Shown one piece after another: positions 6,064-11,714 of a stretch of DNA of 64,000 bases; positions within the stretch are counted from its first letter, which is position 1, and every line of letters begins with the position of its first letter. This DNA comes from Candidatus Poribacteria bacterium (GTDB taxonomy: Bacteria > Poribacteria > WGA-4E > WGA-3G). The notes beneath the pieces were generated by a model. The model saw only the letters and a list, made by a program, of their open reading frames with translations. It had not been told where the DNA came from and made no database searches. The DNA lies in assembly GCA_009839745.1 (NCBI GenBank), contig VXPE01000111.1, forward strand, positions 1 to 64,000, given 5' to 3'. The translations under genes were made by a program, and so were the position numbers.

Positions 6064-7059
6064 TTATGTTTCACGCTCGCGATAGAGTGCCGTAATGTTA
6101 TCTAACAACCCTTTCACTTCATCCGGCGATGCGAATGTTTGCTGAATTTCACCAATTAACTCAGTTAACTCCGAGTCGGTGAGTGGCTGCACACTGCCGA
6201 TAACTTCACCCGTTAACGCTGCGACCGCATCGGCAATTACCGACTCAACCTTATTTTCGTCAAGTGGGAACTGTCTACCTTCTGCTCCGAGACGGTCATA
6301 AACACACTGCGTTAGTTCCAAATTGCTGAAGATCTCACAATCGCTAAAGATGGCCCCGACAAGTGTATTCCGCATCTTACCAAGCCGTGAGGAGATAGCA
6401 CCGTAACGGCGACTCCGCAACACGTTTGCTATTACATAGTGGATCTCGTCCGATGTCAAATCTTTGAGCGTCTGCATGTCAACGAACAGTGTTTCTGGCT
6501 TGACGTACTCATCTTCCTGAATGCTTGCGGATGCCTGTCCGGTAACCGGATCTCGCATTGTGTTGTTATCGTAGAGTGCGTTGAACGTCCGCTTTGCTGT
6601 AACGGTTTGGTAGGGTAGAACACTGAAGGCATCGTCTGTAATGACGCGAGACTTTTGCGCGCCCCCACCGCCGACGGCATAACCATAAATCATGCAGTCG
6701 GCACAAATACCACACGGTTTGTTGCGATTTAACGCACAGATATTATCCTCAGCTTCCTGACGATTCCCCCTTGAGTCTGCAGCGTAGAATAATAAGTTAT
6801 GCTGACGTAAGAGTTCACGTCCTGTCCGCCGTTCAATAGCTGTCTGTTTACGTTTACTAATTGTCACGCGAGAGATAAGATCACGCGCCTCAAGTCCGGC
6901 ATGGACTGTATCTCGGCTCAACCCCTCACCGGACCCCTCGGTGCGGAAAATCATTTCTGACTCCGCTTTCCGCAAGACAATTAGCGTCAGATAACGGCTC
7001 TGTGGAAAGTTTTCGTATTTTTCAACCATAAAGTCGGTATAGTTATTCAGAATACTCAT
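6064..7059 (-). CDS. csc2: Type I-D Cascade backbone subunit Csc2 (Cas7 family)
   Basis: 331 residues. A cysteine cluster (C108, C116, C119, C122) followed by YGYAVGGGGAQKSRV is characteristic of Csc2, which polymerises along the crRNA to form the Cascade backbone. The start codon overlaps the stop codon of cas10d (ATGA), indicating translational coupling. Length is normal for the family and no frame disruption is seen. Confidence 0.93.
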   Translation of the reverse strand: MSILNNYTDFMVEKYENFPQSRYLTLIVLRKAESEMIFRTEGSGEGLSRDTVHAGLEARDLISRVTISKRKQTAIERRTGRELLRQHNLLFYAADSRGNRQEAEDNICALNRNKPCGICADCMIYGYAVGGGGAQKSRVITDDAFSVLPYQTVTAKRTFNALYDNNTMRDPVTGQASASIQEDEYVKPETLFVDMQTLKDLTSDEIHYVIANVLRSRRYGAISSRLGKMRNTLVGAIFSDCEIFSNLELTQCVYDRLGAEGRQFPLDENKVESVIADAVAALTGEVIGSVQPLTDSELTELIGEIQQTFASPDEVKGLLDNITALYRERET

Positions 7060-9941
7060 GATTGCTGTTCCTCCTTGTCTCTATCACGCTTTGGGACCAT
7101 TTCGGTAATAAAATAAAGATACCCAGAACGAATCCGTTTCCGGTTTTCAAGCAAATTAAGCAGATTGCCTTGATAAACGCCTTTGTAGATCTGATCAAAA
7201 AGGACGGTGACAAATTGCGAGATGTTCTCCAATTTTTTTATCCCGAAGAACCGCTTATCAAGACGTTCAATCGCTCGGGCGACCTCTTTGGACATGATAG
7301 CCCGTGCTTCTTCTTCAGTTTCATGCTCTGATTGCCAACGTTCAAGGCTGTCAAATGCGACATCAAGCGGTTTAGCGAGTGAATTATCCTTGAGACTCTC
7401 ACCCTTCAACCGCCCTTCCCACGCAATGCGGGCAAGTTCCTTAATGTGAGACATAATCGTCTCTCCTCCTTTCTGTGCCACGACATCGGCGATAAGTTGT
7501 GCTGTGTCGCGGACGGTTACGAACTGTCGCGGTTCATTTCCGGCTTGTTCGCGTTTAATCATTCGGTGGGTTACGTAGTAGAGTTCAAGCACGTCGTAAT
7601 TTAAACTCCGAATCAAGCGCACCAGATCGTCCGCGTCAATACTTCCAATTTTTGATCGGATGGTATGCAAGTTCAGGAGTTGCTTAAACGCTTGCTGCGT
7701 CATATCACTGTCAAGGTTGTTATCCGGCAACCATCCGCGAAATGCGGGGGGGATATGGTCGATGAACAGATGATTGAATTCATCATCGGAAAAGAGTGGG
7801 ATTGACGAATCGGTCAGCACCGCACGGGATCCTAAAAAGCGTTGATATAACAAAGCGTTTTCGATTGCGAATAAAATGTTCCCCGTATGATTGTTCCCGG
7901 GTGTATTCACCGGGATCGTTAGAATGTTACCGAGTGCCTCTGAGAACTTCGGAATTGGGTTTCCGTTGACTTTTGTCTGTGAAAACGTCAGTTCCAACTG
8001 GGTCTTTTCCTGATAGTTCCGAAGGGCATCGTCTGTTTTGAGAAAAACGGACGGAAAATCGGGATTTTGGAAATTCTCCTGTGCCCGTTGGAAAGCCCGA
8101 ATAAAAACCTCCGTAAAAAACGAGATTGGGTAGAGATGAATAAAAAATGTTGCTGTGCTGCCTCCGACATTGTAACAGAGTTTGTCAAGCATGTATTGGG
8201 TTCGGCATACACTACAGACTCGGCGTTTCGGTTCACGTGATGAGCCGCCTTCAAGCCGATTGGAAAATTGTTGCACCTTGATATTTGCTGGCACATCTGG
8301 TTTCATCCAGAGGGCAGTATCAAATTCCGAACCGCAGGTGCTACACTGAACGTGGTTATCCTTAACATAACGTTTTAAGTTTGTGTTGAAACCCCGATTC
8401 CTACCAGCAACAAAGTTGAAATCAACGTATTTGAGAACGTAATCGACTAATAGTCCAAACTCGCTTTCGGTTTCTAAGGTCTCTAAAAACTGGATGCCGT
8501 TTTGGACAATCAACTCGTAAATCTCATCAAACTCGCGACCGGTATTGTAAAGATCGCGTCCGATGATGTAGCCGCGGTCCCAAAGGGCATTGAACAATGC
8601 ATACCGCTCATGATAGGTTGTATCTTCAGTATCCAGCGGCAATTCAAGTAGTCCATAGATGTGTAACCACGCATCAGGGAGAGCCTCGGAAAAATGTTTA
8701 TTCAAGAAAATATAGTATGTTCTGACCAATTCTCCAAGTCGAATAGCGTCATCATCATGTGGTAGTCGGTAGGTTTCTGTCTCTAAGATTTCATCAAGCA
8801 ACGTTCGCTGTCCAACCGTTCCATTTGGATCAAAAAGAGGTAGTTGTCCCTCTTGATGTTCAACGACATTCGGATCTGGTTCACCCAACTTATCCCGAAT
8901 TCCTTCAAGCCTTTCCCGACACTTGGCGTTCATCGCATCTACTTTCGTGTTTGCGACATACTTCCGCTCGCTGATGATATTCCGGACTTCATTCCAAATT
9001 TCCCCAAAAGATACGCCGAGTGTAATGCACTTTTCATCAACTTTTATACCAGCAGGGCTGCCTTGAATAAACTTGATGAATTCTCCACGAGTCTTCGACT
9101 CAATGTTACGAACAACAGCGTTTCCAATTTCTGCGATTTCATCGGTTGTGATGTGGATATCGCGTTCTTGATCGACGAGATACGCTACACCCTCAGGATA
9201 ATAAAGCAGCGGCAGTAAGTCTTTTTCCGATTTGAGGCACCTCACAATCTCATTGTGTATGAGGTTCGTCAAAATACCGCGCTGTTCGCTCACTTTATGG
9301 TATACGAATTTGTACTGAATATCATCAAAGACGCTATTGAGTTCTATGAGAAAGTCCCGTTTTTTTGCACGTTCCTCAAGTGTTTTTGATAGGTCAATGA
9401 CATCCATTGCACGGATAATCGGGACAAGATAATTGAGAAGTCTGCTTTTATCCAATGAATACGGATTATAAGTCTGATCGAGGGTTTCAGCATAGGTGTT
9501 ATAGAACCGCGAATGGGCGCGGACCAAGACCTCAATATCCTTCAAATAATCTTGCCATTCCGGGAAGAAGGGGTCTATCTCAAGGTCAGTCAACACGTCA
9601 CTGATGTTTTCTGCGTTTGCCAGATAGTTAAACGAACGCTTTTGATCCTGAAATTGACTAAGCTTGTTCAAATCATGGACGCTGAAAGCACTGAATAGGA
9701 CCTGAACTTCAAGGTTATCTAAATCTAAAATTGGACGTAACCGTTCCAGAACGCAAATCCCGTTGAGAATATGGAGATAGAGCGACTCACCAGCCTTCGC
9801 GCCATATTGGATGATCTTCTGATAGGTACGTAACTTCCTGTTAGCGACTTTGTCCATATAATTTTGAAGGATGTCACTGGTCCCCGAATCAATCCCAAGG
9901 GTCAATAATAAATCTTCAATTTCGGATTTCCGTTTTGCCAT
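7056..9941 (-). CDS. cas10d: Type I-D large subunit Cas10d (Csc3) with HD nuclease domain
   Basis: 961 residues. An HD motif (SVHDLNK, H89-D90) lies in an N-terminal helical domain, matching the HD nuclease carried by Cas10d in type I-D. Two CxxC pairs (CSTC near residue 535 and CSVC near residue 575) form a probable zinc ribbon. No GGDD cyclase motif is visible, as usual for Cas10d. It is both the large subunit of Cascade and the DNA-cutting subunit acting with Cas3'. It is the first gene of the operon, with AAAGGAG before the ATG, and overlaps csc2. Confidence 0.93.
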   Translation of the reverse strand: MAKRKSEIEDLLLTLGIDSGTSDILQNYMDKVANRKLRTYQKIIQYGAKAGESLYLHILNGICVLERLRPILDLDNLEVQVLFSAFSVHDLNKLSQFQDQKRSFNYLANAENISDVLTDLEIDPFFPEWQDYLKDIEVLVRAHSRFYNTYAETLDQTYNPYSLDKSRLLNYLVPIIRAMDVIDLSKTLEERAKKRDFLIELNSVFDDIQYKFVYHKVSEQRGILTNLIHNEIVRCLKSEKDLLPLLYYPEGVAYLVDQERDIHITTDEIAEIGNAVVRNIESKTRGEFIKFIQGSPAGIKVDEKCITLGVSFGEIWNEVRNIISERKYVANTKVDAMNAKCRERLEGIRDKLGEPDPNVVEHQEGQLPLFDPNGTVGQRTLLDEILETETYRLPHDDDAIRLGELVRTYYIFLNKHFSEALPDAWLHIYGLLELPLDTEDTTYHERYALFNALWDRGYIIGRDLYNTGREFDEIYELIVQNGIQFLETLETESEFGLLVDYVLKYVDFNFVAGRNRGFNTNLKRYVKDNHVQCSTCGSEFDTALWMKPDVPANIKVQQFSNRLEGGSSREPKRRVCSVCRTQYMLDKLCYNVGGSTATFFIHLYPISFFTEVFIRAFQRAQENFQNPDFPSVFLKTDDALRNYQEKTQLELTFSQTKVNGNPIPKFSEALGNILTIPVNTPGNNHTGNILFAIENALLYQRFLGSRAVLTDSSIPLFSDDEFNHLFIDHIPPAFRGWLPDNNLDSDMTQQAFKQLLNLHTIRSKIGSIDADDLVRLIRSLNYDVLELYYVTHRMIKREQAGNEPRQFVTVRDTAQLIADVVAQKGGETIMSHIKELARIAWEGRLKGESLKDNSLAKPLDVAFDSLERWQSEHETEEEARAIMSKEVARAIERLDKRFFGIKKLENISQFVTVLFDQIYKGVYQGNLLNLLENRKRIRSGYLYFITEMVPKRDRDKEEQQS

Positions 9942-10019: not shown

Positions 10020-10048
10020 ATTATACTACATAAAATTTGCGTTTTACA
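10020..10048 (-). promoter_or_regulatory. Candidate promoter of the cas operon
   Basis: On the minus strand a perfect TATAAT (10025 to 10020) lies about 80 bases upstream of the cas10d start. At 17 bases upstream the -35 position reads TGTAAA, a weak match. The surrounding 150 bases are very AT-rich. Because all seven cas genes are closely spaced on one strand, this one promoter could serve the operon. Confidence 0.5.
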
Positions 10049-10127
10049 CCAATTACAAAAAATTCGACATAAAAATCGAGAAAATAGGTCTTTTTTTTGT
10101 AAAAAATTCAGAAATTGCGAAAATTTC

Positions 10128-10156
10128 TTGACTTTTTGTGCAAAAAGGGGTATACT
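10128..10156 (+). promoter_or_regulatory. Strong sigma70-type promoter for the tandem RNA units
   Basis: TTGACT at 10128-10133 and TATACT at 10151-10156 with exactly 17 bases between. It points into the two repeat units at 10177-10380. No plus-strand protein gene begins until 11715, so its product is probably non-coding. Confidence 0.75.
10132..10147. promoter_or_regulatory. Palindrome in the promoter spacer, possible operator
   Basis: CTTTTTGTGCAAAAAG is a perfect 7-base inverted repeat around TG. It fills the spacer between the -35 and -10 boxes, a position where a dimeric regulator could block or twist the promoter. The WYL regulator encoded next door is an obvious candidate, but this is inference. 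Confidence 0.5.
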
Positions 10157-10176
10157 GTGATCAGATAGTTCACTTG

Positions 10177-10276
10177 CAGAAGTAAAGTAGCAGCCGAAGA
10201 CTATTGCGTATGCTGAGCTACCTACCGACCGGTCAGTAGGATAGGTTGCCCGCCTTCTCACCAAGGTGGTTTTCTG
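10177..10276 (+). ncRNA. Structured RNA-like tandem unit 1
   Basis: A 100-nt unit starting CAGAAGTAAA and ending GGTTTTCTG. Its ends pair (CAGAAG with TTTCTG). Inside are a near-perfect palindromic stem CCTACCGACCGGTCAGTAGG and a GC-rich hairpin, CCGCCTT with AAGGTGG around a CTCACC loop, followed by TTTT. The second hairpin plus T-run resembles an intrinsic terminator. It begins about 20 bases after the -10 box. I recognise no known RNA family and see no convincing peptide. Confidence 0.6.
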
Positions 10277-10284
10277 CCCCATAT

Positions 10285-10380
10285 CAGAAGTAAAATCACA
10301 GCCGAAGACTATTACGTACGTTGAGCTGTCTCCCGGCCGGGAGAATAGGTTGCCCACCCTCTCACGGGGGTGGTTTTCTG
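10285..10380 (+). ncRNA. Structured RNA-like tandem unit 2
   Basis: A 96-nt second copy, 8 bases after unit 1, with the same ends and the same core (CAGCCGAAGACTATT, ATAGGTTGCCC, CTCAC loop). The central stem has a different sequence, TCTCCCGGCCGGGAGA, but is again a perfect palindrome and is 4 bases shorter. The terminal hairpin reads CCACCC...GGGTGG. The differences preserve pairing, which is good evidence for selection on RNA structure. It ends about 37 bases before the stop codon of the convergent WYL gene. Confidence 0.6.
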
Positions 10381-10417: not shown

Positions 10418-11443
10418 CTAATCTCCCGAATAGAGGCAATGCATCCGGCGCACAATCTCCTGAAACTCCGCACGGAATTCGGGTGGGTCCAAGACCTCCG
10501 CCGCATCCCCAAGACTCAACACCCAAAACGTGAACTCCTCTTTCGGCACTTCATAACGGACAATCACCGCACCATCGGCACACCGTTCTACAATCTTTTG
10601 CGAGGGATGACGCTGCTTTTCTTCAACCAGATACGCCTTGTGTGCGGCAATTTTGAGTTTTACGTTGATCGGTTCACCGCTGAAGAGTCCCCATCGAGGT
10701 GCTAAACTCTCGGAGAGTGAAAAATCCTCAGAGGGTTCAAACGGCTCATCACTCAACATAACGCGGCGGAAACGGACAATTTTGAAAGTGAGTGACGGGG
10801 TATCTGACCGATTGGAGCGTGCTTCAAGATACCAATCCTCCTTCCGAAAGAAGATGGCATACGGATGGAGTAGATGGACGACAGGCTCCGATTTTCCACC
10901 GGGCTGATAACTCGCACGTACCGCCTTTTGCTCGTAAAGTGCCTCTTCCAGAACGCGAAAGTGCTCCTCAACATCATTATTATTCTCCCTATACGGTGGA
11001 GCTTCCTCTGAAAGATAGAGATGTCCCTCAATTTCGTTATCCGCCTCGATTTTGTGGAGTTGAACCGGTGTATTCTGCTCCAATCTCGATTGGATGTGCT
11101 CCGCAAGGGTGGTGTCGAGTTTTTCCAGAACGCGTTTGAGAGATTTCTCAAAACGCGCCTCTTTTGCAAGCGGTGAAGCAGCAATCACTAACTCCAAGAC
11201 GTGCCTCTCTTCGGCTGTGATCCTGGGCCAGCGCAGCAAACGTTCTGTCTCAATCCAATAGGATCCTCTATCCTTTTTCAGGTTGCAGCATTCCTTGATA
11301 ATCTTCAGGTCATCATAGATGCGGGTTATATCAATATCATAGAAGCTCGCGAGGGATCGGACTGTGATACCGTCTACCTTCTGGAGATGGTCTATTATGC
11401 TCAAGATACGTCGCACCTGTTTTCTACCATCGTTATAGCCCAT
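10418..11443 (-). CDS. WYL-domain transcriptional regulator next to the CRISPR locus
   Basis: 341 residues from ATG 11443, chosen because AAAGGAGG lies just upstream; a longer reading frame starting at 11632 would begin upstream of the promoter and is rejected. Residues 1-60 form a winged helix-turn-helix (RKQVRRILSIIDHLQ, then VRSLASFYDI). The middle contains the WYL core EDWYLEARSNRS, followed by the WCX-type C-terminal extension. WYL proteins are commonly linked to CRISPR and other defence loci, where the domain senses nucleic acid or nucleotide ligands. It likely controls the cas operon or the adjacent RNA units. Confidence 0.85.
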   Translation of the reverse strand: MGYNDGRKQVRRILSIIDHLQKVDGITVRSLASFYDIDITRIYDDLKIIKECCNLKKDRGSYWIETERLLRWPRITAEERHVLELVIAASPLAKEARFEKSLKRVLEKLDTTLAEHIQSRLEQNTPVQLHKIEADNEIEGHLYLSEEAPPYRENNNDVEEHFRVLEEALYEQKAVRASYQPGGKSEPVVHLLHPYAIFFRKEDWYLEARSNRSDTPSLTFKIVRFRRVMLSDEPFEPSEDFSLSESLAPRWGLFSGEPINVKLKIAAHKAYLVEEKQRHPSQKIVERCADGAVIVRYEVPKEEFTFWVLSLGDAAEVLDPPEFRAEFQEIVRRMHCLYSGD

Positions 11444-11608: not shown

Positions 11609-11714
11609 TGCAACAATACGCAAAATACCCAAGCAAAAACACGCAAGCGGATCTACGGAAAATCGTTTTTTGACACCAATTCACCTGAACGAACCGCAAG
11701 GAAAATTAGAAAAA
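11609..11714 (+). repeat. Dispersed leader repeat supplying the RBS of the hydrolase gene
   Basis: Contains TGCAACAATACGCA, CCCAAGCAAAAACACGCAAGCGGAT and finally GAACCGCAAGGAAAATTAG just before the ATG at 11715. The same modules recur at 18014-18178, 37731-37840, 46204-46270 and in shortened form before other genes. The AAGGA is the likely Shine-Dalgarno site. Confidence 0.7.

Follow-up and report, generated by a model that had tools for sequence, protein, structure and literature searches.

A pair of tandem units in the window, the 64,000-nt stretch of Candidatus Poribacteria DNA analyzed here, is part of a family of structured small RNAs (RNA1), which on balance is probably a new DUF3800-associated family; RNA1 would be the RNA component of a module shared with a protein, perhaps in the manner of an antitoxin, within a defense cassette. 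The RNA family and a clade of DUF3800 proteins are linked one-to-one, and RNA1 sits in a conserved bidirectional promoter cassette before defense operons. We regard it as likely that DUF3800 is the partner of RNA1, and the antitoxin-like mechanism as plausible but somewhat short of an even chance. The RNA1 of the window is best read as an orphan RNA whose nuclease gene is gone.

Unit 1 of the window (10177-10276, + strand, 100 nt) and unit 2 (10285-10380, + strand, 96 nt) are separated by 8 nt and are approximately 82% identical without gaps. Unit 1 consists of a closing helix P1, helices P2, P3 and P4, and a 3' hairpin P5 with a U-run (cmsearch, 114 bits), and unit 2 has the same architecture with a shortened P4 (102 bits). 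The lengths and spacing of the units, the CAGAAG/TTTCTG closing ends and, at the end of each unit, a hairpin with TTTT behind it were as described in the initial annotation of this DNA, as was a sigma70-type promoter facing the units (10128-10156, + strand; TTGACT 10128-10133, 17-nt spacer, TATACT 10151-10156), which we read directly in the sequence. A TTGAC-like/TATA-like pair, mostly with 17-nt spacing, is found 5' of nearly all 28 RNA1 loci. The perfect palindrome noted earlier within the promoter spacer (10132-10147) was confirmed in the window, where 7 of 7 arm pairs match, but the other 27 loci have only 0-6 of the 7; with this lack of conservation, the proposed binding of the WYL protein at this site gained no support. 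A DNA search of the same genome revealed four RNA1 units in all, forming two loci, with the second pair at C40:13682-13915.

Single-sequence folding of RNA1 in the window was unremarkable (z = -1.1), so the case for a structure rests on comparison with relatives. In an alignment of 36 units, 97.4% of the cells in the 27 pairs of the helices were paired, and 12 base pairs covaried with changes on both sides. The covariation score was 0.272 against 0.156 in shuffles, none of 500 shuffles attained it, and pairing fell to 25-49% when the partner strand was slid; the compensatory change first noticed between the two units is thereby upheld beyond the window. The helix cells contained 114 G-U against 9 A-C, indicating that the RNA1 strand is the + strand. 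P1 (CAGAAG/UUUCUG) surrounds P2 and the terminator-like P5, and P2 (GCAGCC/GGUUGC) in turn surrounds a short P3 together with P4, which is highly variable and in which all eight pairs covary; P2 and P3 likewise show switches between G-C and A-U. The unpaired core GTAAA..CAGCCGAAAACT is highly conserved, and a variable guide-like or spacer-like stretch was found in none of the aligned units. Within the class with an 8-nt linker, the 5' units were more alike mutually (0.89) than to their own 3' partners (0.78), suggesting that the pair is old and differentiated.

A DNA search of 60 relatives found RNA1 pairs in many genomes of the genus. The covariance-model search of related Poribacteria suggested in the initial annotation, with a model built from 36 units, gave 56 units (E <= 0.01), or 28 elements, spread over 25 of the 59 genomes in one family, whereas the phylum's remaining 26 genomes gave no RNA1 at this threshold. 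Most elements are pairs; G060 and G061 have three units, G066 and G072 have a single one, and G006 has two adjacent pairs. At L041:9500-10151, two neighboring pairs, one of each linker class, stand before one type I-D operon. A pattern scan of 84,980 species detected true copies only in Candidatus Poribacteria; matches in seven other organisms were single and were rejected by the covariance model, and none were found in viral contigs.

The gene placed tail-to-tail with RNA1 at most elements encodes a DUF3800 protein (Pfam, 4.6e-7; tblastn), or the WYL regulator where DUF3800 has been lost, as in the window. The initial annotation was correct about the WYL neighbor but missed that the usual convergent neighbor is this nuclease gene. 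All 14 clade-1 DUF3800 genes in the 59 genomes adjoin RNA1, and in L044 the stop codon of the gene abuts the U-run of RNA1. The gene or its fragments are present at approximately 16 of the 28 loci, intact in L041 (second pair), L042, L044, L045, L048, L049, L068, L070, L071 and L077, and broken or partial in L040, L043, L011, L069, L073 and L075; it is absent from approximately 12 (about 40%), namely the window, L046, L047, L050-L054, L072, L074 and L076. The loss is one-sided, since clade-1 DUF3800 without RNA1 was seen at no locus. At the loci without DUF3800, RNA1 remains 96.7% paired with 10 covarying pairs, against 98.4% paired otherwise. The AlphaFold model of DUF3800 (pLDDT 92) had RNase H2/HII as the top solved folds in Foldseek, consistent with the RNase H fold reported previously (PMC10910872), and the proteins of L045 and L048 vary at the DESGQ residues. 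No relatives of DUF3800 were found in viruses, plasmids or phages. A link of DUF3800 to ncRNA has been reported, and DUF3800 is also found with Cas12a2 and type VI-F loci (PMC10910872, PMC12669027).

In three further DUF3800 clades, each clade is paired with a different convergent RNA, unrelated to the others and driven by a TTGAC-type promoter of its own. The clade of about 190 aa is accompanied at 8 of 8 loci (L105-L112) by RNA2, a conserved structured RNA of about 130 nt with a TTGACA promoter, and that of about 280 aa at 10 of 10 loci by RNA3 (about 76 nt; L119, L130-L139), which is closed by GCCAGGGA/UCCCUGGC and has its own TTGACATT promoter; both RNAs lie just 3' of DUF3800 on the opposite strand. 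The 215-aa clade is associated with RNA4 of about 43 nt (GCAGGACTGAACCC...GTAGGCCCTGC; L113:4719-4765 (+), L125:6435-6488 (-), L121, L074 and others), which stands with its own DUF3800 gene in L113 and elsewhere sometimes without one, sometimes alongside RNA1. Strong RNA3 matches also occur in genomes without any DUF3800 hit (for example G013, G066, G073 and G001), and RNA3 thus seems to repeat the pattern of orphan copies seen in RNA1. Rfam gave no match for RNA2, RNA3 or RNA4. A core apparently common to RNA1 and RNA2 (CCGAAnAC..GTAT) was dropped, as the predicted pairing differs. Note that the RNA2 and RNA3 loci adjoin mostly ordinary genes, suggesting that the linkage to defense is not general and that the DUF3800-RNA unit itself is no CRISPR accessory.

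In the window, RNA1 lies between a type I-D CRISPR operon and a WYL gene, in agreement with the initial annotation. The divergent operon begins with cas10d (7056-9941, - strand; PADLOC Cas10_Id, E 3.8e-175) and has the order cas10d, csc2, cas5-like, cas3, cas6, cas4-cas1, in which Csc2, Cas6 and Cas1 were identified; its Cas4 and Cas1 are fused into one 545-aa protein (401-2038, - strand). The WYL/WCX-domain regulator (10418-11443, - strand; Pfam WYL 5.1e-11, WCX 1.8e-15) is convergent with RNA1, and its start was set at the ATG at 11443, with the ORF running on to 11632. The RNA also recurs beside other WYL genes, between WYL and the defense operon at most loci. Altogether, 22 of the 28 elements are divergent from an adjoining type I CRISPR operon, and one adjoins a type I restriction operon. 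The divergent neighbor is cas10d of type I-D order A for 12 pairs at 11 loci, the cas3-led I-D order B in five cases (one with the WYL gene in between) and cas8b of type I-B in four; the others are another type I CRISPR operon (L077), hsdM (L049) and a WYL-led operon (L050, L054), and the divergent gene of L072, L073 and L075 was left unassigned. RNA1 is not tied to type I-D, a point that the initial annotation missed. In L054 (10205-17967), the WYL-led operon divergent from the RNA1 pair has PDC-M48B candidate defense genes and hsdM downstream. Among the Csc2-positive genomes without RNA1, the absences in L125, L127 and L129 are genuine, and in L125 RNA4 stands in for the missing RNA1. In five other genomes with type I-D (L122, L123, L124, L126 and L128), the contig ends within the first cas gene or immediately ahead of the place expected for RNA1, and the lack of RNA1 is probably due to assembly breaks.

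About 130 nt 5' of the RNA1 promoter is conserved across the I-D A, I-D B and I-B loci, and this region carries a TATAAT for the defense operon and a box, TTTGCGTTTTACRCAAA, over its -35 position. In the window, the putative -10 (TATAAT) of the cas10d operon is at 10020-10025 (- strand) within the conserved block TTAATTATACCATATAAAATTTGCG, and the box, TTTGCGTTTTACACCAA, a candidate operator, is at 10036-10052 and covers the -35 position of the promoter that drives the divergent cas genes, the same place as in the RNA1 and RNA4 cassettes of the I-D A, I-D B and I-B loci. The box in relatives is an imperfect palindrome (TTTGCG-TTTTA-CGCAAA), and in the window's own genome no exact copy lies outside the two RNA1 loci; a single further match elsewhere has one mismatch. 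Before cas3d (L113) and cas8b (L121), the slot of RNA1 between WYL and the defense genes is taken by RNA4, and the box there is the same. The conservation of the upstream region and box before different operons suggests that the RNA, the bidirectional promoter and the box act as one cassette. A weaker look-alike of the box is found 5' of the WYL gene (11653-11681; 72% over 29 nt, ACACCAATT in both), as would be expected of an autoregulated WYL operator.

We propose that RNA1 and the DUF3800 protein, with its predicted RNase-HII-like fold, form a module encoded tail-to-tail. The transcript of about 204 nt would be constitutive, each unit would fold on its own and bind DUF3800, and RNA1 would restrain the nuclease in the manner of a type III antitoxin; the outcome may be an addiction or abortive-infection module that is retained next to genes for CRISPR and restriction. 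With the nuclease gene lost in the window, the orphan RNA1 there would perhaps act as an antidote in trans, or be retained for service to the cassette. The one-sided loss of DUF3800, together with the fold still kept, is the trace that an antitoxin or anti-addiction RNA would leave. We place the antitoxin step below an even chance because the same picture could be given by a larger mutational target in the gene or by a separate regulatory role of the RNA: the loss may be partly neutral, as mutations hit a 600-nt gene more readily than a 100-nt RNA, and RNA1 may have another role, as about 40% of the loci, including the window, have no DUF3800. More tentatively still, DUF3800 and its tandem RNA could represent an unrecognized toxin-antitoxin or addiction class captured into an exchangeable cassette guarding CRISPR and restriction operons, with the RNA kept as an antidote after the nuclease is lost. 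One bacterial family has four unrelated RNAs, each tied to its own DUF3800 clade, with one-sided loss of the protein and with two of the RNAs swapping places before CRISPR operons. The question of what DUF3800 RNAs do is thereby reduced to whether the protein is toxic or active when its RNA is missing, and our results suggest that defense operons can bear a guard of RNA and nuclease along with a shared regulatory cassette.

If DUF3800 is the partner, the two could instead form an active ribonucleoprotein, a small defense effector in which the RNA is a scaffold, guide or infection sensor. The RNase H fold, predicted here and in PMC10910872, the company of DUF3800 with Cas12a2 and type VI-F loci (PMC10910872, PMC12669027) and the highly conserved unpaired core would suit such a particle. 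We nevertheless consider it rather unlikely, as every RNA1 unit is devoid of a guide-like variable stretch and an RNA persisting without its protein is explained more easily by an antidote or a regulator. That persistence also speaks for RNA1 as a regulator of the defense cassette, sensed by WYL or acting in trans on the divergent operon, with DUF3800 as a dispensable neighbor or an RNA-processing enzyme. The position of RNA1 and RNA4 between WYL and the defense operon at most loci, their common conserved bidirectional promoter and box, and the capacity of WYL domains to bind ssDNA or ssRNA (PMC9122601) point the same way. The one-to-one match of DUF3800 clade and RNA family, however, argues against it, as do the two DUF3800-RNA families away from defense genes, two loci (L011, L049) without WYL within 9 kb, the unconserved promoter-spacer palindrome and the lack of complementarity of RNA1 to the defense leader, and we judge this reading unlikely. 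Antisense action on the leader of the defense mRNA was rejected, since cognate duplexes did not exceed shuffled ones in strength (mean z +0.9, 12 shuffles each). The early suggestion of a decoy RNA of the CRISPR system accordingly gained no support, and neither did that of a ligand sensed by the WYL protein, which we regard as unlikely.

Two other explanations are far less probable. RNA1 adjoins type I CRISPR operons, and one or two ectopic repeats are typical of CreTA (PMC9458426), so that RNA1 might be a crRNA mimic like CreA/CreR, derived from degenerate CRISPR repeats and steering Cascade to its own promoter; by inspection, however, the units are unlike the I-D repeat GTTTCAATCTCGTAATCGAGAATCTTTT of related loci, have no spacer-like variable segment and also stand beside hsdM in L049, which makes this highly improbable. 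The multiple copies within the phylum could also be accounted for by dispersed DNA, mobile or repetitive, that has no function as RNA, but only four units at two loci exist in the window's own genome, their position relative to genes is fixed and the promoter conserved, and both the one-strand bias of G-U over A-C and the compensatory changes contradict it, leaving this the least credible reading of all.

The DUF3800 RNA motifs DUF3800-I to DUF3800-XI were reportedly described by Weinberg et al. in 2017. For years, structured RNAs next to DUF3800 genes have been catalogued, and we know of no function assigned to them. Two of the motifs, RF02969 (DUF3800-I) and RF02968 (DUF3800-IX), are named in PMC11701678. 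Like these motifs, RNA1 is a conserved structured bacterial RNA near DUF3800-family genes, and by structure and adjacency it belongs to the kind 'DUF3800-associated RNA' as a new family, set apart from the published motifs according to Rfam and the citing papers. Rfam gave no match for RNA1 in the window up to E 5, and none of its DUF3800 families matched in L040, L041 and L044 up to E 2; RNA1, like RNA2-RNA4, therefore differs from the motifs in having no Rfam match, and also in being a differentiated tandem pair in the promoter cassette of a defense operon. The initial view that no described family fits stands as far as Rfam is concerned, although the kind itself was already described.

CreTA/CreR RNAs, which guard or regulate CRISPR-Cas, resemble RNA1 in being small and in having their genes next to a type I cas operon, but RNA1 shows no sign of an origin from CRISPR repeats and also occurs beside restriction genes. 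Regulators of the BrxR/CapW type are, as in the RNA1 loci, WYL proteins beside diverse defense operons. BrxR binds inverted repeats with a 5-bp spacer, and its R-BOX is, like our box, an imperfect inverted repeat with such a spacer near the operon promoter (PMC9122601); the arms here are shorter than those of the BrxR site (11 bp), and we treat the box only as a candidate WYL operator. Type III toxin-antitoxin systems (ToxIN, CptIN, TenpIN) share with the RNA1 module a nuclease-like protein beside tandem structured RNA units, an intrinsic-terminator-like hairpin and a link to phage defense. In those systems, the RNA precedes the toxin gene and is read in the same direction, with a terminator between them (PMC5086642), whereas RNA1 is convergent with DUF3800 rather than a co-directional upstream leader, its units are about 100 nt long and one to three in number, and the predicted fold of DUF3800 is RNase-HII-like, not that of ToxN. 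Because gene order and protein fold differ, we do not file RNA1-DUF3800 among the type III systems, although it would work most like one of them.
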